A DNA stretch of 59,340 bases from positions 1 to 59,340 of IMG/VR virus record IMGVR_UViG_3300038455_000058; one strand, given 5' to 3'. The stretch is from a virus. Both the position numbers and the translations under genes were made by a program. The notes beneath the pieces were generated by a model. That model was given only the letters and a program-made list of their open reading frames with translations, did no database searches and was not told the origin of the DNA. Position 1 is the stretch's first letter. Each line of letters begins with the position of its first letter. Positions 21,534 to 58,870 of the stretch are shown here, piece by piece.

Positions 21534-22405
21534 GCTGGATCAAGCTCGATGACAACTTTGCCGACCACCCCAAGATGGTGACCGCTGGCCCGTTGGCGAT
21601 GATCCTACATGTGAAGGCCATGCTGTACTGCGCCAGGTACCTCACCGACGGATTCGTCCCGGCAGGCATAATCAACTCTCTGGTTGACTGGGAGCACGCT
21701 GGCGTATGTATCCGTGTGTCGTCGGGGGACTTCTCGGAGTCCTTTGAGCAACCAAACAATCAAGCACTTGCTCAAGCACTTGCTCAAGCACTTGCTTGGC
21801 ATGTTGTTGACGGTGGGTATGAGATCCACGACTACCTCAAGTACAACCCCTCTAGGGATGAGTGTCTCGCCAGGAGAGCTAAGCGCAGTGAGGCTGGAAA
21901 AAACGGCGGCAAGAGGTCTGCCACATTACGTTCCGAAGCAAAGTCTCAAGCAAACGGCAAGCAAGAGGTCAATCAAACCGCCAAGCAAACGGCAAGCAAA
22001 ACTCAACCCCGTACCCGTACCCGTACCCCTAATAGAGAGATCGCGGCTGCCGCCGCGGCCCAAGGTGAGCGTTCGGACTACACCAAGATCGTCGACTTCT
22101 ACTTCCAGGAGTTTGAGCGCGTCAGAGGGTCCAAGCCACCATTCGGGGATCGGGAGGGCAAGTCGGTCAAGCAACTCCTGGAGTCCACCAAGTCAGCCAA
22201 GAGCGCATGCGACGTCATCAGGACAGCCCTCAACCACAGCTTCTTCGGACCCCAGACCAGCATCAACGCCATCGCCGCAGACCCTGGCAAGTTCGTCGCC
22301 AAGACACCGGCACAGTCTCACAACGTGCTCGATGACGAGCTTGATGATGGTCCCATCGCTCCGGAGATGGGCGCCCTGTTCGCCGACATCGGGAGGACAT
22401 CGTGA
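21530..22405 (+). CDS. replication initiator / helicase loader-like protein
   Basis: 291 aa from ATG 21530 (ATGA overlap). N terminus (WIKLDDNFADHPKMVTAG, YCARYLTDGFVPAGIINSL) matches the phage replisome-organiser winged-helix domain. A Gln/Asn/Lys-rich linker (about 75-170) follows, then a C-terminal domain (FYFQEFERVRGSKPPFGDRE, GKSVKQLLESTKSAKSA) like DnaB-loading proteins. The linker is encoded by clustered direct repeats, the same arrangement as lambda O, whose gene contains the origin. Confidence 0.75.
   Translation: MSWIKLDDNFADHPKMVTAGPLAMILHVKAMLYCARYLTDGFVPAGIINSLVDWEHAGVCIRVSSGDFSESFEQPNNQALAQALAQALAWHVVDGGYEIHDYLKYNPSRDECLARRAKRSEAGKNGGKRSATLRSEAKSQANGKQEVNQTAKQTASKTQPRTRTRTPNREIAAAAAAQGERSDYTKIVDFYFQEFERVRGSKPPFGDREGKSVKQLLESTKSAKSACDVIRTALNHSFFGPQTSINAIAADPGKFVAKTPAQSHNVLDDELDDGPIAPEMGALFADIGRTS
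21761..22025. repeat. iteron cluster, candidate replication origin
   Basis: Three perfect tandem copies of CAAGCACTTGCT (21761-21796), two copies of CAAGCAAACGGCAAGCAA (21947-21964 and 21982-21999, 35 bp apart), and three copies of CCCGTA (22008-22025). The stretch from 21895 to 22005 is notably A-rich for this genome. All lie in the linker part of the initiator gene, just before the DnaB gene. Confidence 0.55.
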
Positions 22406-44533: not shown

Positions 44534-45315
44534 CCTCTCAGCTTGGTGGCCTCACCCTACCGATTCCGGCTGGTGTAGCAAACAGCGAGATAGACGATCC
44601 GGTGGTGAGCGGCCTCGCCGCGTACCTCGCGTTCTATCTCAACGATGCGCTTAACACGAAGCTCGCCAACCTCTCCGGCACGAGCGCAGAGGCGGTGCCG
44701 AGCACGAACACGTTTCTGTGGGACCCGTCCACGTACTTCGTGAGGGGCCGAGGCGACGGCGACGCCTCGCCCTTCCCCGCCTTGTATGTATGGTGGGACG
44801 GTCGCAGCCAGCATGCACTTGGTCGTGAGACGCTGATCTACGATTGCCGCGAGCGGCTCATCAGCGTCATGTATCTGTTTGAGGAGCTGAACTTCCCAGG
44901 CGCGGCGAACGCAAGGCGCGGGCTCCTCGGCGCAGTTGACGCGGTGTTCTTCAAGGCTGGTGAGAGGTGGCGTCATGCCAGCTTCTCTCTGGGCACTGAC
45001 GCACTCAACTCCTGGTTGCTCCATGAGCTCAACATCGTGGACCTCCGCTACATGGGCGGGACGCGCGGCGAGCTGAAGGCAAGCATCCCTGAGGCAAGCG
45101 CTCGAGCCGGTGGCAGTGGCGAAGGCGCGCCAACGCGCGGATACCCGGCGCTAAGCGGTCAATTTCGCGTCTGGGAGCAAGTGGAGCAGGACTCGAGCGA
45201 TGAATTCGCTGGCGATGTGGAGCTCGATATCCGGGCTTGCGAGGGGCTGGACGAGCCGGTGGACTTCATGACGCGATACCTTCCTGGACCTGACGGATCC
45301 GAAGAGGAACCGTAG
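44530..45315 (+). CDS. tail completion/terminator-like protein
   Basis: 261 aa from TTG 44530 (TTGA overlap). An alpha/beta fold with SGLAAYLAFYLNDALNTKLA, PFPALYVWWDGRSQHALGRE, ERLISVMYLFEELNFPGAAN. The last 157 nt are covered on the other strand by an endonuclease VII gene. Likely the joint between head and tail; assignment by order. Confidence 0.5.
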   Translation: MTSQLGGLTLPIPAGVANSEIDDPVVSGLAAYLAFYLNDALNTKLANLSGTSAEAVPSTNTFLWDPSTYFVRGRGDGDASPFPALYVWWDGRSQHALGRETLIYDCRERLISVMYLFEELNFPGAANARRGLLGAVDAVFFKAGERWRHASFSLGTDALNSWLLHELNIVDLRYMGGTRGELKASIPEASARAGGSGEGAPTRGYPALSGQFRVWEQVEQDSSDEFAGDVELDIRACEGLDEPVDFMTRYLPGPDGSEEEP

Positions 45316-45803
45316 CGCTCCAGGTATGGGATGACGAGTACGCTCCCATAGCCGTGCATCTCGTATCCGGCGATCAAGAGGTTGCACGCACGGTGCACCA
45401 GGCCGCGCACATCGCCAGTCTTGTGGTTGTGGTCAACACAGTCTCCGGCGCCGCGAGCATCACCAAACCCGTCGCCGCACAGTGCACACACACCGCGCTG
45501 CGCAAGCATCATCTCGGCATACATCTCTGGTGTGATGCCGTATCTGCGCCTCTGTTGAAGCGCGCGAATCCTGTCTGTGTTAGTGCGATACCATCTCTGT
45601 TTACTCTCCCGTATCTTGTCGCGGTTGGCGCCACGGTACTTCTGCTGACTCTCGAGAAACTTGTCTGGGTTAGCGCGACGGTACTCGCGAGCGCGTACGC
45701 ACACGCAATCCTTGCACTCACCCCTGAGACCATTATTCCTGCGAGAGTCTCTGTGAAAGTCACCCGGTCCCTTCTCCACTCCGCATTTCGTACACGTCGG
45801 CAT
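45159..45803 (-). CDS. endonuclease VII-type homing nuclease
   Basis: 214 aa on the strand opposite to the late genes. N-terminal zinc module CTKCGVEKGPGDFHRDSRRN then CKDCVCVRAREYRRANP; a repeated helical linker with NPDKFLES/NRDKIRES/NTDRIRAL; catalytic core CALCGDGFGDARGAGDCVDH then NHKTGDVRGLVHRACN, giving Asp124-His125-Asn126-His127 and zinc ligands Cys106, Cys109, Cys140. From about residue 165 the frame runs antisense through the end of the 44530 gene and loses sense (SSSDPSGPGRYR...). An insertion between tail genes. Confidence 0.88.
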   Translation of the reverse strand: MPTCTKCGVEKGPGDFHRDSRRNNGLRGECKDCVCVRAREYRRANPDKFLESQQKYRGANRDKIRESKQRWYRTNTDRIRALQQRRRYGITPEMYAEMMLAQRGVCALCGDGFGDARGAGDCVDHNHKTGDVRGLVHRACNLLIAGYEMHGYGSVLVIPYLERYGSSSDPSGPGRYRVMKSTGSSSPSQARISSSTSPANSSLESCSTCSQTRN

Positions 45804-46360: not shown

Positions 46361-46849
46361 TTAGCTTCCTTCCTTGATCTCAATCTTCGGTGGTTCTCGA
46401 AGGTATGAGGCGGCCCTGTAGCACAGGTCTGCATCGTCTCGAAGGTGGCCGATTCCGATATTGCACGATCTGCAAAGCAGGCCGCGCACGTTACCAGTGA
46501 CATGATCGTGGTCGACGCATGATTCTCGTAGGCCCATTCTACAACAGCAGACTCGGCAAGCACCATGCTGGGCATCATAAAGCTCAGCCTTCTGAGACCA
46601 CTCAATGCCGTATCTCCTGCGAACATGTCGCATGCGATCCTTGTCCCTAACCCTGTCCAGGTTGTTGCGCCTATACTCGGCATTAGCTGACTTCATTTGT
46701 TCGCGGTTAGAGTCGTAGCGAGCCCTGCCGGCTATTCGGCGGCACTCTATGCAGCTGTGCCTGAGGCCGTCGGCAGACCTCTTGTCTAATCCGAATTGGC
46801 TCTCCTCCAGCAACCTCCCACAGCCACTCTTCTTGCTACAAAGCTTCAT
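46361..46849 (-). CDS. endonuclease VII-type homing nuclease
   Basis: 162 aa, opposite strand. MKLCSKKSGCGRLLEESQFG starts a zinc module (SCIECRR); core CRVCCCRMGLRESCVDHDHV then TGNVRGLLCRSCNIGIGHLR, with Asp113-His114-Asp115-His116 and Cys126, Cys129, Asn130. Tail LREPPKIEIKEGS. Related in layout to the gene at 45159 but clearly diverged, so two separate invasions or an old duplication. A TACATT box lies 6 nt before the ATG without a good -35. Confidence 0.9.
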   Translation of the reverse strand: MKLCSKKSGCGRLLEESQFGLDKRSADGLRHSCIECRRIAGRARYDSNREQMKSANAEYRRNNLDRVRDKDRMRHVRRRYGIEWSQKAELYDAQHGACRVCCCRMGLRESCVDHDHVTGNVRGLLCRSCNIGIGHLRDDADLCYRAASYLREPPKIEIKEGS

Positions 46850-47191: not shown

Positions 47192-48757
47192 ATGGCACTG
47201 ACTGGGCTTGATCCCAATGGGCGTACGCCCGGCATTTGGCGCGAGTTTGCTTTTGCGCAGGGCCCCGGCTCGAGCGGCACCACGCGCGACGTCCTCATCT
47301 ATTGCAACAAGACGAGCGCTGGTAGCGAGACGGTTGAGGTCATCGGAGACCCGATCGTTGACCGTACGGACGCCAAGGCACGCCTTGGCGCGCGGAGCGA
47401 GGGCTTCGCGCTCTACAAGATGTTTACCGCGATCGACAAGACCGCGAATGTCTACGTCGGCGTTGCCACAGAGGGCACCGGATCCGTTACCCGCACCGTG
47501 ACGTTCGGCTCTGCTGAGACTGACGTCACCACGGCGGCCACCACGTGCAAGATCGAGTTCCAGGGCGAGGAGGCATCGTTTGCCGTGGCCAACGGAGCCA
47601 CCACGGCAGCGATGGCTGCAGCATTCGTTCTCGCGTTCAACAATGCGTCCAGCGGTGAGTGGCAGGCCACGGCGGCGGCAGGCACCACGCCCAACCTCCA
47701 CGTGGTCACGATCACGATGGCGCAGCTCGGTGCGCGTTGCCATCCGCTCCTGAACAAGTCTCTTCGGGTGACGTTCGCCGCTAGCTGCGGGATCTCCGTC
47801 TCGCTCGGCTCGACCAGTGCAGCCGGCACGGACGACGACTTTACCAACGTGTACGCGGCGGCGGACTCGGGAGAGTACTACTACCAGGTCAATCCGAAGT
47901 TCAGCGTTTCTGCGCCCACCGCAACGGATAACGGCGTTGGTGAGGGGCTGCTCAACATGCGGACCTGGAACCTGCCGGCCAACGGCAAGGCCGGTCAGAT
48001 GCATTTCGGTCTGACTGGTACGCAAGCGCAGAGCACCACGGTCGCCACCGACGCCGACGCGAACACCACGCTCGGGTACTTCTGGCACGCCGAGAACTCG
48101 CCGTGGAGCGCAGGCATGATTGCGGCACACTGGTGCGCTGTTAAGCGCGTCAAGGAGATCGCTCACCCAGCTGCAAACCTCGCCGGTCTCCGTTCGAGCG
48201 ACACGCTTCCGATCCTCGGGCCTCCCGATCCGATCGACAAGGCAGACCGTCCCACCGCGTCCGAGGTGGAGCTTGACCTCCGCAATGGCGTCTCGGCGCT
48301 GGCGTTCACGTCTCGCGGTCAGGTCTACCTTCCTCGCTCGATTACATCCTACTCGGAGGTGTCTACCGGAGTGAAAGACTACCGCGCGAGCGAGGGGCAT
48401 ATCCCGAGCGCGATCCACTTCGCGTGGGACACGCTCCGCGCCAGGTGGGAAGCCGAGAAGCAGCCATTCCTCGCGGATGATCCGCCCGCTGGCTCCAAAC
48501 CTCCGGTCAAGACGAGCACGCCAGGTCAACTCAAGGCTCTTATCAACAGCGTGATCGACGATCTCACCGCTACGAGGCCGCTGGGTCTCTACGAGGGGCC
48601 GATCCTTTCGCCATCGCCGTCTGACGTGCAGGCGATGCGCGACTCGATCGTTGTGACGCACTCGCCCGGCGCACTCCGCGCCAGCGTCGACTTCCGCGCG
48701 GTCGAGCACAATCTCAAGACCGAGGTCAAGGTCAACGAGACCTCACCCGCTTACTGA
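47192..48757 (+). CDS. tail sheath protein
   Basis: 521 aa. Mu gpL-like sheath: GIWREFAFAQGPGSSGTTRD, EVIGDPIVDRTDAKARLGAR, KMFTAIDKTANVYVGVATEG (domain I beta stretch), and the conserved C-terminal domain NSPWSAGMIAAHWCAVKRVK, TASEVELDLRNGVSALAFTS, YLPRSITSYSEVSTGVKDYR. It contracts to drive the tube through the envelope, so the phage is a myovirus. A 595-codon open frame on the other strand (46922-48709) is only its shadow. Confidence 0.88.
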   Translation: MALTGLDPNGRTPGIWREFAFAQGPGSSGTTRDVLIYCNKTSAGSETVEVIGDPIVDRTDAKARLGARSEGFALYKMFTAIDKTANVYVGVATEGTGSVTRTVTFGSAETDVTTAATTCKIEFQGEEASFAVANGATTAAMAAAFVLAFNNASSGEWQATAAAGTTPNLHVVTITMAQLGARCHPLLNKSLRVTFAASCGISVSLGSTSAAGTDDDFTNVYAAADSGEYYYQVNPKFSVSAPTATDNGVGEGLLNMRTWNLPANGKAGQMHFGLTGTQAQSTTVATDADANTTLGYFWHAENSPWSAGMIAAHWCAVKRVKEIAHPAANLAGLRSSDTLPILGPPDPIDKADRPTASEVELDLRNGVSALAFTSRGQVYLPRSITSYSEVSTGVKDYRASEGHIPSAIHFAWDTLRARWEAEKQPFLADDPPAGSKPPVKTSTPGQLKALINSVIDDLTATRPLGLYEGPILSPSPSDVQAMRDSIVVTHSPGALRASVDFRAVEHNLKTEVKVNETSPAY

Positions 48758-52786: not shown

Positions 52787-53700
52787 TGAGCAACGTAATT
52801 GGCGATCTCGCGCCGCTGAAGTGGCGCGGGCTTTTGGCTCCATGTGAAGCTGCGTCCTACCGTGGCGCGCACTCTCAGGCTAAGCGCCAATACCCGTACA
52901 TAGACGCGGCTGGACACGATTGGACAGGCAGGGACGCTTACGCGTTTCAGCCGACACGCTTGCACTTTCTCAACACTATCAAGCCAGGAGATTGGTACCC
53001 CACGAAGTGGAACGACTTCCGCGCCGCACTCGAGGACGGCTCCGCCGGTGACCTGGACCACCCCGATCTAGGCAGCGTAAGAGCCAGGGTACTCACGTGG
53101 GACGTTGCGCTGAATGCGCAGAACCGCGGCGGTGTGGTTGTCGAGGTTGTGTGGGAGGAGACGATCGACAACCTGGATGAGCGTGTCGTGTTTCTCGGTC
53201 CGGACATCTCGCCCAAGGCGCTTGCCGCGGGCGCAGACTCGGACATGGCGAAGCTTGGTATCGCGTATCCAACCGGGAAGCCAAACACATCGCTCACGGA
53301 CATGATCAACCAGATCGATGGGCTCGCCTTTTCGGCAACGCTCAGCGCTCAGGGGCTGATTAACCAGGCGATGGGCACCGTGTCCGGGCTCATCAAGACC
53401 ATTGACAGGCTGAACGACCACACCACTTGGGCCCTGCACGGGAACCTCGTGGCGCTGTGGAACGCGCTCCGTGCGATGGCTGCTGAGGTGGTTTCGGTGA
53501 ATCGCGCCACTCGCGTCATCGTGACCACAGCCGAAACAACGCTCGATCAGATTGCGCGAGACGCCGGTAACACGGTTGACGAGATTGTTGGGCTCAACCT
53601 GTCCCTCGTTAGCTCCCCGAGCGTTCCGAAGGGCTCGCGCGTTACCGTGTACTCCGGCGGAGTAAGCGTCAGTTCCCCGCTCAGGAAGCCGGGGCCGTGA
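52786..53700 (+). CDS. Mu gpN-like DNA circulation/baseplate protein
   Basis: 304 aa. N terminus (PLKWRGLLAPCEAASYRGAH, KRQYPYIDAAGHDWTGRDAY) matches the DNA circulation family (Mu gpN), now known as tail/baseplate hub components. The C terminus (ETTLDQIARDAGNTVDEIVG then VPKGSRVTVYSG) is a LysM-like module, suited to cell-wall binding. First of the baseplate block. Confidence 0.75.
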   Translation: MSNVIGDLAPLKWRGLLAPCEAASYRGAHSQAKRQYPYIDAAGHDWTGRDAYAFQPTRLHFLNTIKPGDWYPTKWNDFRAALEDGSAGDLDHPDLGSVRARVLTWDVALNAQNRGGVVVEVVWEETIDNLDERVVFLGPDISPKALAAGADSDMAKLGIAYPTGKPNTSLTDMINQIDGLAFSATLSAQGLINQAMGTVSGLIKTIDRLNDHTTWALHGNLVALWNALRAMAAEVVSVNRATRVIVTTAETTLDQIARDAGNTVDEIVGLNLSLVSSPSVPKGSRVTVYSGGVSVSSPLRKPGP

Positions 53701-54902
53701 GTGTTCCGGTTGAGCTCAGGTTCTCGGGCGGCGAGATCCTGAGAGCGTGGGAATCTGTGTCCTTAAGGGACACTTTCACGGACCCACTCGGTGACGCCTC
53801 CCTGACGGCCCGTCCGCCGCGCGAGCTGATCGAGAGTTACAACGCCAGGCTGGTCAAGGGCTCGCTGGTATCTGTCATCGTGAACGGTGCGCCGCAGGGC
53901 GTGAATCTGATCCAGTCGGTGACGCGCCGGATCGATCGCAACGGCGTCTCGTTTGACGTGGAGTGCCAGTCTGTGCTGGCCACCCCGTACGAGGCAAGCG
54001 CAAACCCGGACTATGCCTTCTCCAGCAAGACTGACACGCCCATCTCGGCCGTGGTCCTGGACATCATGCGCCCATTCGGCTTCGAGGAGGTGTTCATCAA
54101 CGCAGAGGATGACGTTCCTGCGCGGATGGGCAAGGCGCTCAAGCACACCGGCGGGAAGCTCTTCGTCGAGGCGCTTAAGCACCAGGACTGCCAGGTCCAG
54201 GAGGGGGAGACGGCGTACGGCGTTGTCGATCGCATCGTCAACCGCCTGGGTCTCATCCTGCGCGTGGACGTGGCCGGACGACTTCTGTTGGTGCGCCCAC
54301 GATACGACCAGGATGCGGCGTACACGCTGGTGCACGATTTCCTGAACACGCACCGCGGCGATCACATGCTCGATGGGATCGAGATCCGCGACACCAACAA
54401 GAATCAGCACAGCGAGTGCGTGGTGCGCGGTGTGGCGAAGGACTCCGGCGACCAGACCCAGACTTCGCAGCCGATCGCCAGGGTTGGCAAGAGCGGCTTT
54501 CGTCCAACGACGGCGCCATACGGCAAGGTGCCGCTCACCACACTCGAGGACGGGCGGCACACCTACTCTTCGGACGACAGCATCGCGCCGTACAAGCCCA
54601 AGTTCTTCAAGGACAAGAAGATCCGGGACAAGGCTCGAGCCCAATCGCTCGCCAAGCTGATCCTGGGCATGAAGGCGAAGGACGCGTTTACCGTCAAGTG
54701 CGAGGTTGCGGGCTTCGTCTCACGAGAAGGGCGCGTGTGGAGCATTGATACTGTGGCTCGCGTGGTCATCGGATCGATCGGACTCGATGAGAACATGTGG
54801 ATCCTGTCCCGCGAGCTGAAGGCTGACCGCCAACGCGGGCAGATCACCAGCTTGGAACTGATCCCGCTCAATAGTCTGCAGCTTGGCGACGTGCCGACGT
54901 GA
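53697..54902 (+). CDS. Mu gpP-like baseplate hub protein
   Basis: 401 aa from GTG 53697. VELRFSGGEILRAWESVSLR, SVLATPYEASANPDYAFSSK and a late conserved region (GFVSREGRVWSIDTVARVVI, ENMWILSRELKADRQRGQIT) match Mu gpP / T4 gp27-type hub proteins. Forms the trimeric ring on which the spike sits. Confidence 0.75.
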   Translation: MSVPVELRFSGGEILRAWESVSLRDTFTDPLGDASLTARPPRELIESYNARLVKGSLVSVIVNGAPQGVNLIQSVTRRIDRNGVSFDVECQSVLATPYEASANPDYAFSSKTDTPISAVVLDIMRPFGFEEVFINAEDDVPARMGKALKHTGGKLFVEALKHQDCQVQEGETAYGVVDRIVNRLGLILRVDVAGRLLLVRPRYDQDAAYTLVHDFLNTHRGDHMLDGIEIRDTNKNQHSECVVRGVAKDSGDQTQTSQPIARVGKSGFRPTTAPYGKVPLTTLEDGRHTYSSDDSIAPYKPKFFKDKKIRDKARAQSLAKLILGMKAKDAFTVKCEVAGFVSREGRVWSIDTVARVVIGSIGLDENMWILSRELKADRQRGQITSLELIPLNSLQLGDVPT

Positions 54903-55360
54903 TTATCTATAGCTGGACAGCGTTTCGTCACCACTTCAACCCGTTCGGGGACATCGGTCCAGACGGCGTGGAGGGGTGGCCGATCGATGACGTGAGGGCC
55001 GGCGGATTCGACGGCGGCTTCTCTGGCATCGCTGAGCCAATCACGGCGTTTCCGATTGATGTATCCGTTGACGGCAGCGCGTCCGGTGCACTCGCGTACC
55101 ACGCGTACCTCAGCCAGAGGACCGACGATCCGGATGCTCAGTACCTGTCTATCATCAGGAAGAGCGGCAAGAGCGGGACGTTTACGATCGGGCTGACGGC
55201 GCTTGCAGTGACCGAACTTGGGTTGACGCTGGCCACCGATCCAGTCAGCTCGGCGCAGCTCATCCAGGCCCTCAAGTACGTGACTCTCTACGTCCAGCGC
55301 CTCTCTGATGGCGCGATCCAGCTGGTGAACTTGCTGGACGCGACCTTGCCAGACGCATGA
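54899..55360 (+). CDS. baseplate-associated hypothetical protein
   Basis: 153 aa from GTG 54899. GGFSGIAEPITAFPIDVSVD, AYLSQRTDDPDAQYLSIIRK and FTIGLTALAVTELGLTL. Beta-rich first half, helical end. Lies between hub and spike genes; no family seen. Confidence 0.5.
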   Translation: MIIYSWTAFRHHFNPFGDIGPDGVEGWPIDDVRAGGFDGGFSGIAEPITAFPIDVSVDGSASGALAYHAYLSQRTDDPDAQYLSIIRKSGKSGTFTIGLTALAVTELGLTLATDPVSSAQLIQALKYVTLYVQRLSDGAIQLVNLLDATLPDA

Positions 55361-56046
55361 TCAAATTCGCCGACCACACTACCGGCATCTCAGACGTCCT
55401 CGGCTCGAGCGTGGACGGTGGAGAGGTGCGGCTCAACCTGGGTTTCTACCAGGGGACGAGCGAGGACCTTGGGATCGGTGCCGCCTCGCCGATGTGGAGT
55501 CAGGCTGGCTTCGCCTCTAGACCGGCTGACCCTGGGTCTGGTGGTGCCGCTATGGCACTGTGGCTCCAGGATGGGGACCAGCGTCGCGTGCTCGCGACCA
55601 GGGACAATAGGCGCGTAGAGAAGGTCGGGGATCTGAAGCCAGGTGGCGTCGCTATCTTCTCTAGCGGCACGTCAAACAGCTTCGTCACGCTCGACGGAGA
55701 GAACGGAACTATCTCGATCTACTCCCCGTACGCCTACTCGTCTGACGTGCCAGGCAAGGCGCACCTGATCGCGCTCAACACAGAGTCGGGCAATGAGTCC
55801 ATCTCGATCGTGCACGGTGAGGGGCACTCGATCCTGATGACTACGAGCGGGAGCCTTGTGTTGAAGAACAAGGCCGGAGACGCGTACATCGAGATCAATG
55901 ATGGCGGCATCGTGCTCAACGGCAACGTGACAATCAACGGTGGATTCGTCGCTGGTGATGTCACTACAGCGCTCCCAGTACTGGTCGGTACACCGCCAGG
56001 TACTCCGTCGACGGTCGTCAAGATCAGCATCAACCCGCCGCCTTGA
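55357..56046 (+). CDS. Mu gp45-like baseplate spike protein (gpV)
   Basis: 229 aa. OB-fold-like N terminus (VDGGEVRLNLGFYQGTSEDL), WSQAGFASRPADPG, then a beta-rich helical spike stretch (FVTLDGENGTISIYSPYAYS, EGHSILMTTSGSLVLKNKAG, GGIVLNGNVTINGGFVAGDV). Ends GTPPGTPSTVVKISINPPP without the iron-binding H-x-H tip known in Mu gp45. Trimeric membrane-piercing spike. Confidence 0.8.
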   Translation: MIKFADHTTGISDVLGSSVDGGEVRLNLGFYQGTSEDLGIGAASPMWSQAGFASRPADPGSGGAAMALWLQDGDQRRVLATRDNRRVEKVGDLKPGGVAIFSSGTSNSFVTLDGENGTISIYSPYAYSSDVPGKAHLIALNTESGNESISIVHGEGHSILMTTSGSLVLKNKAGDAYIEINDGGIVLNGNVTINGGFVAGDVTTALPVLVGTPPGTPSTVVKISINPPP

Positions 56047-56348
56047 GCAATTGTGCATTCCCTGCGCTGAGCCTGTCCTTGGCGCTCCCGGCACTGCCAG
56101 GGCTCAGCCTGCCATCCTTGCCGTCTCTACCACCTCTCCCGAGCCTTCCAGGGCTGCCAGCGCTCGACATCAGCCTGGCACTTCCGGCGCTCCCAGGGCT
56201 CTCCCTGCCGTCTCTGCCGAGTCTCCCGAGCCTGCCGAGCCTCCCAGGATTGCCGTCTCTGAGCCTGTCCCTGGCAATCCCATCGCTGCCAGGGCTGACG
56301 CTGCCGAGCCTACCGGCGCTACCAAGCCTCTTCTGTCCGCTGGACTAG
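56043..56348 (+). CDS. Leu-Pro-Ser repeat protein, possible spike tip or needle
   Basis: 101 aa from TTG 56043 (overlapping the spike stop). Almost entirely Leu, Pro, Ser, Ala and Gly in a three-residue rhythm (LPSLPSLPPLPSLPGLP), arranged as three 32-residue repeats beginning at L11, I43 and L75 (LSLALPALPGL, ISLALPALPGL, LSLAIPSLPGL). One Cys near each end (Cys4, Cys98). The repeats are also visible at DNA level, so the array may change length by slippage. The triplet pattern favours a polyproline-II rod. Gene position right after the spike suggests a spike extension or apex. Confidence 0.6.
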   Translation: MSNCAFPALSLSLALPALPGLSLPSLPSLPPLPSLPGLPALDISLALPALPGLSLPSLPSLPSLPSLPGLPSLSLSLAIPSLPGLTLPSLPALPSLFCPLD

Positions 56349-56551
56349 GGGTAGACAACGACACACACGTAGGCGCCGTCGTTGCGGGTGAAGCACTTGC
56401 ACGACATGTGCTCGTAGAGCGCCAGGAAGCCGATCGCCAGCGCCACGCCGACAGCGAGCCGAACTACCACGGCTGGGCTCGGTCTGGGCTTCGGCTCGAC
56501 CACCTCGACCACATCCTCGGCGCGCAGCTCCTCAGGCTCCATGAGAAGCAT
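56345..56551 (-). CDS. small membrane protein (moron gene 2)
   Basis: 68 aa from ATG 56551. An acidic N terminus (EPEELRAEDVVEVVEPKPRP), a transmembrane helix about 28-47 (VVVRLAVGVALAIGFLALYE), and a Cys-containing outer end (CKCFTRNDGAYVC). It follows the lipoprotein gene by 8 nt on the strand opposite to the tail operon, and its stop meets the repeat-protein stop. Likely co-expressed with the lipoprotein in the lysogen. Confidence 0.65.
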   Translation of the reverse strand: MLLMEPEELRAEDVVEVVEPKPRPSPAVVVRLAVGVALAIGFLALYEHMSCKCFTRNDGAYVCVVVYP

Positions 56552-56559
56552 GCTACCGC

Positions 56560-56949
56560 CTACTCCGGCAGCTTGTCCACACACAAGCCATTCCCGTTGC
56601 AGACGCCCTCAGAGCACGGGAAGCCAGGCGGCATGGCAACGATGCCACAGACGCCATGACCGCACGTCTTGCTCCAGCAATCAGGCGATCCAGACACGAC
56701 GCCGTGGCTCACCACCACCGGATCTGGGCACTCCAGTGCGCACGCACAGTAATCGGCGTTCGGGACCACGCCACATGGACCTACATCTGGCTTGACAGGC
56801 GGCGGGATGTGCGGAGTGACGATCTCGCCTGAGCCGCCAGCACCATCACCGCCGGCACCACCGCCACCAGTTCCGCCTTCGGTGGAATCGTCAGTGGCGC
56901 CACCGCAGGCGCAAAGCGCAATCGCGATCACAGCAAACAGAGTCCTCAT
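56560..56949 (-). CDS. lipoprotein (moron gene 1)
   Basis: 129 aa from ATG 56949. Signal peptide and lipobox ALCAC (Cys15), then a Gly/Ser/Asp linker (GGTGGGGAGGDGAGGSGE) like surface lipoproteins of Polyangia. The folded part has ten Cys (PCGVVPNADYCACALECPDP, CWSKTCGHGVCG, PCSEGVCNGNGLC), probably disulfide-paired. A TTGACA promoter precedes it. Proposed role: lysogenic conversion or exclusion of other phages at the envelope; inference. Confidence 0.75.
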   Translation of the reverse strand: MRTLFAVIAIALCACGGATDDSTEGGTGGGGAGGDGAGGSGEIVTPHIPPPVKPDVGPCGVVPNADYCACALECPDPVVVSHGVVSGSPDCWSKTCGHGVCGIVAMPPGFPCSEGVCNGNGLCVDKLPE

Positions 56950-56987: not shown

Positions 56988-57377
56988 GTGCCTTACACGA
57001 AGGGTCCATACTCCACGCCGTCATCGATTCCGGCGCCAGACCGCCCGGAGCTTTCTGATAGCCGTGGAATCCAGTTCTCCACAGGCACCTATATCACGAA
57101 TTCCGCCGGTGGATTCGATGCGATGCCGCCGATTGCCCAGCGTGTCCTGCTCCTCGTGGCGTTTGCGGGCGGCACACCAGACCCGCTGATTACGCCCCAG
57201 GCGATGGCGTCCGCCAAGGACCGCATCCGCAAAGCTCTATCGATTCTCACCAGCGGGAAGACGCCAGCCATTCGGATCGATGAACTCGAAGCGTCCCGCA
57301 CCGGCGCCGGCACAACCGGAATCACACTTAGGTTTAAGGACTTGACTACTTCGCTTAGCCACACGGTGCAGCTGTGA
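56988..57377 (+). CDS. baseplate wedge protein, gpW/Mu gp46-like
   Basis: 129 aa from GTG 56988. IQFSTGTYITNSAGGFDAMP, PIAQRVLLLVAFAGGTPDPL, then SAKDRIRKALSILTSGKTPA and TGAGTTGITLRFKDLTTSLS follow the W / gp25-type wedge layout. Coupled to the J-like gene by GTGA. Its start lies just outside the opposite-strand promoter. Confidence 0.65.
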   Translation: MPYTKGPYSTPSSIPAPDRPELSDSRGIQFSTGTYITNSAGGFDAMPPIAQRVLLLVAFAGGTPDPLITPQAMASAKDRIRKALSILTSGKTPAIRIDELEASRTGAGTTGITLRFKDLTTSLSHTVQL

Positions 57378-58870
57378 CGCTACCCGCAGTTGACGGCGTA
57401 CTGTATCCGACGCCTCAGGAGTGCCTTGACCAGGTACTGGACGACATCCGCTATGCGTACGAGCAGCGCGGACTCGTTGCCAATGTTGACGAGGGTAGCG
57501 ATCACTGGATCCGCGCGAAGGCATATGCAGCGCGGGCGTCGATCTCATTCCAGAACAACAAACTGTCCCTCGCCAACCTGTCCCCGCGTACGGCTACGGG
57601 GGACGCACTTGAGGACATCTGCGCCGTATACGGCGTCTCGAGGCGCGCGGCCTCTAAGGCGTCCGGCTTCGTTGAGATCTCGTCAACCGGCTCCGTCACA
57701 ATCCCAGCCGAGTACGCGCTCAGCGCTCCCAACGGTGAGCGGTACCAGACCATCACGGCCAACACGGTTGATGATGGCGACCTGGTTGAGATCATCGCGA
57801 TCGGCACCGGAGAGGCTACCAACCAGGATGCCGACACTATTCTCCAGTGGGAAAGCTCGGCCGTTGGCGGTCTCCAGCCAACGGCCACCGTAGACTCTGG
57901 TGAGATTGACGGCGGCGAGGAGGAGGACGACGACGAGACGCTAAGGGATCGGCTCATCCGCCGCCTATCTACTCCGGCACTCGGCGGCACCGCAGCACAG
58001 GTTGCGCAGTTCGCCGAGGACGCCAGCGCGGGTGTGGAGCAAGCCTTCGTCTACGCGTCTGTCCGTGGTCCAGGTAGCTACGACGTTGCCGTTACAGCGG
58101 CCGGCGGGGATCGCACTCTGTCACCCACCACGGTTGGCGTGGTCGACGATGCTGTGCGCGCCGAGTTCCCAGGCATCGTAGACCTCAACACCACCAGCGT
58201 CTCACCGCAGGAAGTGGACGTCATCCTAAATATGACGTTGCCCCTTCCGCTTACCGCCGGCGGCTCTGGCGGCGGATGGCGCGATGCCTCACCGTGGCCC
58301 AGCACCAACGACGGCACGCTGGCGAAGGTCACCAACAAGAGCGGTACCACAGTCACCGTCAACTCCACCAGCTCGGATCCTCCTGTTGCTGGAAAGCGAT
58401 TCGGAATCTGGGATCCGGTTGGCGGCGAGATGCTGGAATTCACCGTCCAGTCCGTTGCCGGATCCACTGGCGCGTACGTTGTCACGCCAGACCCCGCGGT
58501 GAGCTCGCCGCTGACTGCAGTTCAGATAGGCGCATATGTATCCGCCGGCGCGCTCAGCCTGACCGAGTACGCAACGGACTTCGCCGATCAGATTGCCACG
58601 CTTGGTCCAGGCGAGAAGACCGACAACGCAAACATCCTCCCGCGCGGAAGGCGACAGCCGTCTCCGGACACGGACAAGCCCGCTGCGCTCACCACGCTTC
58701 AGATCGCTGGCGTCACCGGAGCACACGCCGAGATCCTGAATCTCGAGTACGCGGCGAGATACGCGACCGGCACGACCACACCTCTCACATCGCCGAGCTT
58801 GCCAGCTACCACGGCTGACCCGCCTCGGATTCTGGTGCTAAAGCACCTTTCCTTTAGGCGACAGATCTAA
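57374..58870 (+). CDS. baseplate J-like protein (Mu gp47)
   Basis: 498 aa from GTG 57374. J-like pattern: LDQVLDDIRYAYEQRGLVAN, VDEGSDHWIRAKAYAARASI, GFVEISSTGSVTIPAEYALS, DETLRDRLIRRLSTPALGG, then GVEQAFVYASVRGPGSYDVA. Two acidic/Thr-Ser segments (about 175-190 and 290-390) enlarge the C-terminal half, including a small beta insertion (VAGKRFGIWDPVGGEMLEFT). Forms the baseplate wedge ring. Confidence 0.85.
   Translation: MTLPAVDGVLYPTPQECLDQVLDDIRYAYEQRGLVANVDEGSDHWIRAKAYAARASISFQNNKLSLANLSPRTATGDALEDICAVYGVSRRAASKASGFVEISSTGSVTIPAEYALSAPNGERYQTITANTVDDGDLVEIIAIGTGEATNQDADTILQWESSAVGGLQPTATVDSGEIDGGEEEDDDETLRDRLIRRLSTPALGGTAAQVAQFAEDASAGVEQAFVYASVRGPGSYDVAVTAAGGDRTLSPTTVGVVDDAVRAEFPGIVDLNTTSVSPQEVDVILNMTLPLPLTAGGSGGGWRDASPWPSTNDGTLAKVTNKSGTTVTVNSTSSDPPVAGKRFGIWDPVGGEMLEFTVQSVAGSTGAYVVTPDPAVSSPLTAVQIGAYVSAGALSLTEYATDFADQIATLGPGEKTDNANILPRGRRQPSPDTDKPAALTTLQIAGVTGAHAEILNLEYAARYATGTTTPLTSPSLPATTADPPRILVLKHLSFRRQI

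Follow-up and report, generated by a model that had tools for sequence, protein, structure and literature searches.

A Leu-Pro repeat protein encoded beside phage and injection-system spike genes is a candidate spike tip

To our knowledge, those contractile injectors that have been studied well finish with one of two structures, a spike apex tied by metal or a PAAR cap. The viral DNA analyzed here (IMG/VR record IMGVR_UViG_3300038455_000058, 59,340 nt, referred to below as the window) carries a Mu gp45-type spike gene followed by a small open reading frame rich in Leu, Pro and Ser, which raises the question of whether this frame is a real gene and, if so, whether its product could form the tip of the spike.

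The repeat gene behind the spike gene of the window

Reading of the window's open frames confirmed a real gene at this position, and with it the original prediction of a 101-residue protein built of three 32-residue repeats of Leu, Pro, Ser, Ala and Gly with a Cys near each end (Table 1). The product, referred to here as the LP protein, is laid out as Cys4, the three repeats and a terminal Cys98-Pro-Leu-Asp, and consists of 33% Leu, 24% Pro, 19% Ser, 9% Ala and 5% Gly (90% for the five together), with no Lys, Arg, Glu, His, Tyr or Trp and with two Asp as its only charged residues. The predicted coupling to the gp45-like spike gene was likewise borne out: start and stop overlap in TTGA (a gap of -4 nt), the last two bases of the TTG start being common to the stop codon. 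The spike itself had been described as having no clear metal-binding tip, and we indeed find neither an HxH motif nor any His in its last 60 residues.

When the LP protein is compared with itself, shifting it by 32 residues gives an identity of 0.71 and shifting it by 64 gives 0.57; none of 2000 shuffles of three-residue blocks, which keep the LPx rhythm, reached the observed repeat identity. These protein repeats agree with the DNA-level array reported by Tandem Repeats Finder at 56064-56305 (period 96, 71% matches). Differences between repeats fall mainly in third codon positions (0.34, 0.24 and 0.56 at positions 1, 2 and 3, respectively) and protein identity between repeats is highest in the coding frame among the six, so that the LP frame is under selection. 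One might suspect a frame that is open by chance in repetitive, GC-rich DNA, comparable to antisense reads of collagen-like genes, given that antisense frames of the collagen-like kind and LP-rich proteins of no relation (L004, L006, L007, L009, L010, L035 and L036) were also returned in numbers by searches with the LP protein. We reject this explanation, which is refuted by conservation and retains next to no credibility, on the grounds of the third-position bias, the start-stop overlap with the spike gene, and the conservation of both ends and position at 13 distinct loci; frame disruption, named in the original prediction as counter-evidence, was found in none of the relatives.

By profile comparison of its OB region with cultured gp45 proteins (hhalign probability 91.6%, E 8e-7), the neighboring spike gene is assigned as a homolog of Mu gp45, and it also gives a weak match to the phi92 spike gp138 (E 0.006). 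The window follows the Mu order of hub, spike, gp46 and gp47, and the presence of a tail sheath gene indicates that the tail is contractile.

Table 1. Features of the tail region of the window
Feature	Position	Strand	Basis
Tail sheath	47192..48757	+	phrog_165 E 4.3e-26
Baseplate hub, Mu gp44/gpP-like	53697..54902	+	phrog_177 E 1.7e-24; GpP fragments in Pfam
153-aa protein between hub and spike, conserved in L015	54899..55360	+	
Mu gp45-type spike without C-terminal HxH apex	55357..56046	+	gp45 OB-region profile; no HxH
LP-repeat spike-tip candidate, 101 aa, TTG start	56043..56348	+	sequence; 12 further family members in spike/baseplate operons
Cys4	56052..56054	+	Cys near N-terminus kept in all members
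Repeat unit 1, residues 5-36	56055..56150	+	period 32
Repeat unit 2, residues 37-68	56151..56246	+	period 32
Repeat unit 3, residues 69-100, including Cys98-Pro-Leu	56247..56342	+	period 32
C-terminal C-P-L-D motif	56334..56345	+	family form CP[LFIA][DNE]; CPC in L003
Protein at Mu gp46 (baseplate wedge) position	56988..57377	+	matches in LP-bearing L005, L015, L016; Mu gene order
Baseplate J-like protein (Mu gp47)	57374..58870	+	PF04865 E 4.3e-25; phrog_6

The LP family and its gene neighborhood

A search of viral contigs with the LP protein returned 25 loci, five of which hold real homologs (L002, L003, L005, L015 and L016); most were rejected as antisense collagen-like or other LP-rich frames. 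A sixth homolog, L027, came from a search with the spike, L044 and L057 were reached through baseplate J searches, and most members were retrieved with the LP protein alone. The original prediction had pointed to metagenomic phages as a place to look for similar frames behind the spike, and 12 further distinct members were found, which together with the window form a family of 13 (L002, L003, L005, L015, L016, L027, L029, L030, L031, L043, L044 and L057; L032 is the same phage as L030 and was counted once). They stem from uncultured phage contigs, the GenBank metagenomic phage MW202476 (L044) and one CIS-like cluster; all are metagenomic and none comes from a cultured phage, MW202476 being so classed by the source line and generic name of its record.

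All 13 members carry a Cys near the N-terminus, and all except L003, which ends in CPC, terminate in C-P-[LFIA]-[DNE]. Three units of 32-40 residues are present in 12 of the 13 members; L057 has two (71 aa) and an exact DNA repeat of about 57 nt, its two-unit form having possibly arisen through assembly collapse. In 11 of the 12 members tested, self-comparison peaks at one and at two unit lengths, the unit being 32-38 residues long; L002 features three units of 39-40 residues each with a small shift. In most three-unit members the chain after the first Cys equals a whole number of units within 1-2 residues, and the second Cys lies near the end of the last unit, such that the pair is separated by about a whole number of repeats, a spacing that suggests joining of the ends or a shared metal site. 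Across the family, Pro ranges from 17 to 37% and Gly from 0 to 12%; L031 and L044 carry 15-16 charged residues, and several members have strand-like alternating stretches (e.g., RFRVDVDIGVSLDI and TFSLDLDLKL) that are clearest in those same two. An alignment of all members contains few conserved blocks, too few for a joint scan of the collection. We also note that L003 (L003:5049-5393) combines an N-terminal CxC with its C-terminal CPC, four Cys that could bind metal, unlike the members with two.

All 13 LP genes lie in spike or baseplate operons, and in 12 they directly adjoin the spike gene, at distances of -4 to +19 nt; in L002 the LP gene stands 485 nt behind the spike in the same operon, with a 156-aa open frame between. 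The partner spikes are of the Mu gp45 type in eight loci and of the Phage_base_V/gpV-VgrG type, related to solved CIS and T6SS spikes, in five. The spike precedes the LP gene in 11 loci, comprising six of the Mu type (the window, L015, L027, L031, L044 and L057) and five with the order gpV spike, LP, gp25 and baseplate J (L002, L003, L029, L030 and L043), where LP occupies the place expected for PAAR; the LP gene comes first in L005 and L016. The linkage therefore survives rearrangement, and since L027 was fetched by the spike and L044 and L057 by baseplate J, it also holds from both sides. The L043 record looks like a contractile injection cluster, judged by its first 20 kb, where domains of sheath, CIS_tube and T4 gp19 are encoded. 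Mu and its annotated cultured relatives have no LP gene between gp45 and gp46, the latter coming right after the former. Small or Ala-rich proteins also recurrently adjoin the spike or LP gene (L003:5419-5691, L043:6342-6593, L002:4517-4987 and L071:2492-2704) and possibly constitute another spike-associated family.

Comparison with PAAR caps and metal-bound apices

In PAAR proteins, a single chain that is pseudo-trimeric where it starts and narrows to a point caps the trimeric spike, and spike tips are generally closed by metal (PMC10715212). No PAAR domain (PF05488) was detected at E<=0.1 in any of 12 LP-bearing records, several of which are fragments, under conditions where control genomes do match, and the LP proteins themselves have no PAAR match in Pfam. 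Like PAAR tips (T6SS PAAR, T4 gp5.4, eCIS Afp10/PVC10), LP proteins are small and encoded beside trimeric spike genes of the VgrG, gpV or gp45 type. A single LP chain is proposed to cap the trimer with pseudo-three-fold symmetry, and its Cys may tie the tip. Unlike PAAR, they feature three long LP-rich units, with neither sequence relation to PAAR nor its motifs, and in contrast to its usual four-ligand zinc site, most members have two Cys and no His, with four Cys only in L003.

HxH motifs bind iron at the apex of the central spikes P2 gpV, phi92 gp138 and R2 pyocin (PMC6116203), and the Mu gp45 apex holds Fe and Ca (PMC11915804). An HxH apex (P2 gpV, phi92 gp138, R2 pyocin PA0616, Mu gp45) shares with the LP protein its place and its presumed job of closing and hardening the spike end; the former is built by the C-terminus of the spike itself, to which three chains contribute six His, whereas the latter is a separate gene product. 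None of the eight LP-bearing Mu-type spikes has HxH, versus 15 of 17 cultured Mu-type spikes that have no LP gene, a contrast (Fisher p 4e-5) that counts related sequences rather than events, as the LP-bearing Mu-type spikes may form one lineage, in which case 0/8 would reflect few independent events. Direct inspection found no LP gene beside the spike in any of the 17 cultured regions; composition-filter matches there were only minus-strand open frames over the hub or spike gene and were discarded. Exceptions with neither HxH nor LP are Paraburkholderia phage IPK and a Silvanigrella phage (Mu-type spike at L071:1926-2480). By contrast, all five LP-bearing spikes of the gpV/CIS type keep HxH near the C-terminus; the exclusion is therefore limited to the Mu-type group, and LP is not a simple HxH substitute everywhere.

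The three-residue rhythm with Pro recalls collagen-like and other low-complexity phage fiber proteins. LP proteins differ from collagen in having no Gly-X-Y, that is, no Gly at every third residue, and from fiber proteins in being short and fixed, with three units between two Cys and a spike rather than fibers as neighbor.

A candidate cap and its alternatives

We consider it fairly likely that the LP gene encodes a dedicated tip, or cap, of the trimeric membrane-piercing spike, with three units matching the three-fold spike, probably used where a metal-tipped or PAAR-capped point is missing. In each unit of about 32-40 residues, successive [hydrophobic]-Pro-x triplets, which probably adopt a polyproline-II or extended conformation, would lead into a short stretch resembling a strand; if polyproline-II, the LPx runs would have one face lined by Leu, another by Pro and the third by Ser, Gly or Ala. 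As a homotrimeric spike presents three equivalent chains at its end, each LP unit may meet one of them, so that a single virion-borne chain would bind the apex, pack its units round the three-fold axis with pseudo-three-fold symmetry and close the blunt end in PAAR-like manner for piercing. At the point where unit 3 comes back to unit 1, the N-terminal Cys would contact the Cys-Pro-Leu-Asp of the C-terminus, and this contact, a disulfide or a shared metal ion, could lock the ring. LP would replace the gp45 His-x-His iron apex in Mu-type phages and sit at the expected PAAR position in gpV/CIS-type clusters.

The cap reading is supported by the observations that most members found by the LP protein alone still adjoin a spike, that family members accompany spikes of both the Mu gp45 and the Phage_base_V/VgrG type, and that the chain after the first Cys equals three units in most members. 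It is weakened by the two units of L057, by the HxH kept in gpV-type spikes, and by the lack of a confident AlphaFold fold, a solved or named homolog, or a cultured-phage member. The AlphaFold2 models were too poor to be of use, both for the window protein run together with 10 relatives (pLDDT 58.9, pTM 0.13) and for L005 with L016 (pLDDT 34). Of the roles originally proposed, that of a spike tip or extension receives strong support from the neighborhood at 13 loci, the absence of PAAR and the HxH exclusion in Mu-type spikes, while a sheath is not supported; the polyproline-II conformation stays plausible for the LPx runs, AlphaFold being uninformative here and several members having strand-like stretches.

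In a homotrimeric needle, three LP chains would each extend one spike chain as a polyproline-II/strand bundle, the repeats setting length only, which would accord with the continuous LPx rhythm, the two units of L057 and unit lengths that range between 32 and 40 residues. Tandem repeats easily change number, so that copy number should differ between members if the protein were purely a length ruler, yet three units persist in 12 of 13 members despite large sequence divergence, and the two Cys of a chain are spaced by roughly a whole number of units; we therefore regard a needle as unlikely. Phage chaperones are often encoded beside their clients, and a small co-transcribed gene adjoining the spike in either order could specify an assembly factor, a chaperone or plug that folds or loads the spike and is not part of the virion. 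Such a role would leave both the HxH loss in LP-bearing Mu-type spikes and the PAAR absence unexplained, and a composition with 17-37% Pro and conserved Cys ends is unlike that of known chaperones, making it distinctly improbable. The window member, one third Leu and charged at two Asp only, would also suit a hydrophobic, membrane-active piece borne by the spike, which would disrupt the outer membrane or a lipid layer of the host or insert itself there, tip shape being secondary; that extreme hydrophobicity is not conserved, as the 15-16 charged residues of L031 and L044 attest, and we give this explanation very little weight.

A spike tip is a role of known kind, which the LP protein would fill in a new way. 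Pfam and PHROGs hold no meaningful family for it, sequence matches in the PDB were set aside as chance leucine-rich-repeat, collagen or short low-complexity hits, and tblastn against cultured phages gave no match, a silence that the low-complexity filter makes uninformative. In a profile search of 399 and 397 genomes of two phyla, the sole match was an LP-rich protein of Mycobacterium whose gene does not neighbor a spike. Four whole-genome matches were dismissed as other LP-rich proteins or unverified low-complexity frames. Within partial literature coverage, we found no named family, solved relative or published description. It is conceivable, if somewhat short of probable, that the family represents a third solution to spike sharpening unrelated to PAAR and HxH: a non-metal Leu-Pro pseudo-three-fold cap with joined ends, common to Mu-like myophages and CIS-like clusters, with a polyproline-II/strand fold absent from solved structures.

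Were the cap reading true, a widespread third kind of tip would imply that metal is not essential, and a small three-fold-matched module would offer a natural place for cargo attachment. LP-type proteins would also become candidates for the missing tip of some clusters, e.g., the Streptomyces CIS, reported without a spike-tip candidate (PMC10286715). Annotation readily overlooks LP-type genes or assigns them a wrong frame: the one in MW202476 (4938-5249) is unannotated, and the deposited CDS UOF77303.1 (4940-5395) covers the locus in another, wrong frame.

Other features of the window include two opposite-strand genes between the LP and gp46-like genes, at 56560-56949 (-) and 56345-56584 (-), one encoding a Cys-rich lipoprotein-like product (a signal, then CGG and a Gly-rich linker) and the other a small membrane protein with a single helix. 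At the corresponding position, MW202476 likewise carries a gene on the opposite strand for a similar, lipoprotein-like product (L044:5344-6138 (-)), and the Gly-rich style recalls, in our impression, myxobacterial lipoproteins, which we take as a hint at the host. Inside the tail region, the opposite strand holds two genes of the endonuclease VII type (PF02945), at 45162-45803 (-) and 46364-46849 (-), which are probably free-standing mobile endonucleases. Finally, the left part of the window contains short tandem repeats at 21760-22002, with units of 11-12 bases (TCAAGCACTTGC and CAAGCAAACGG).
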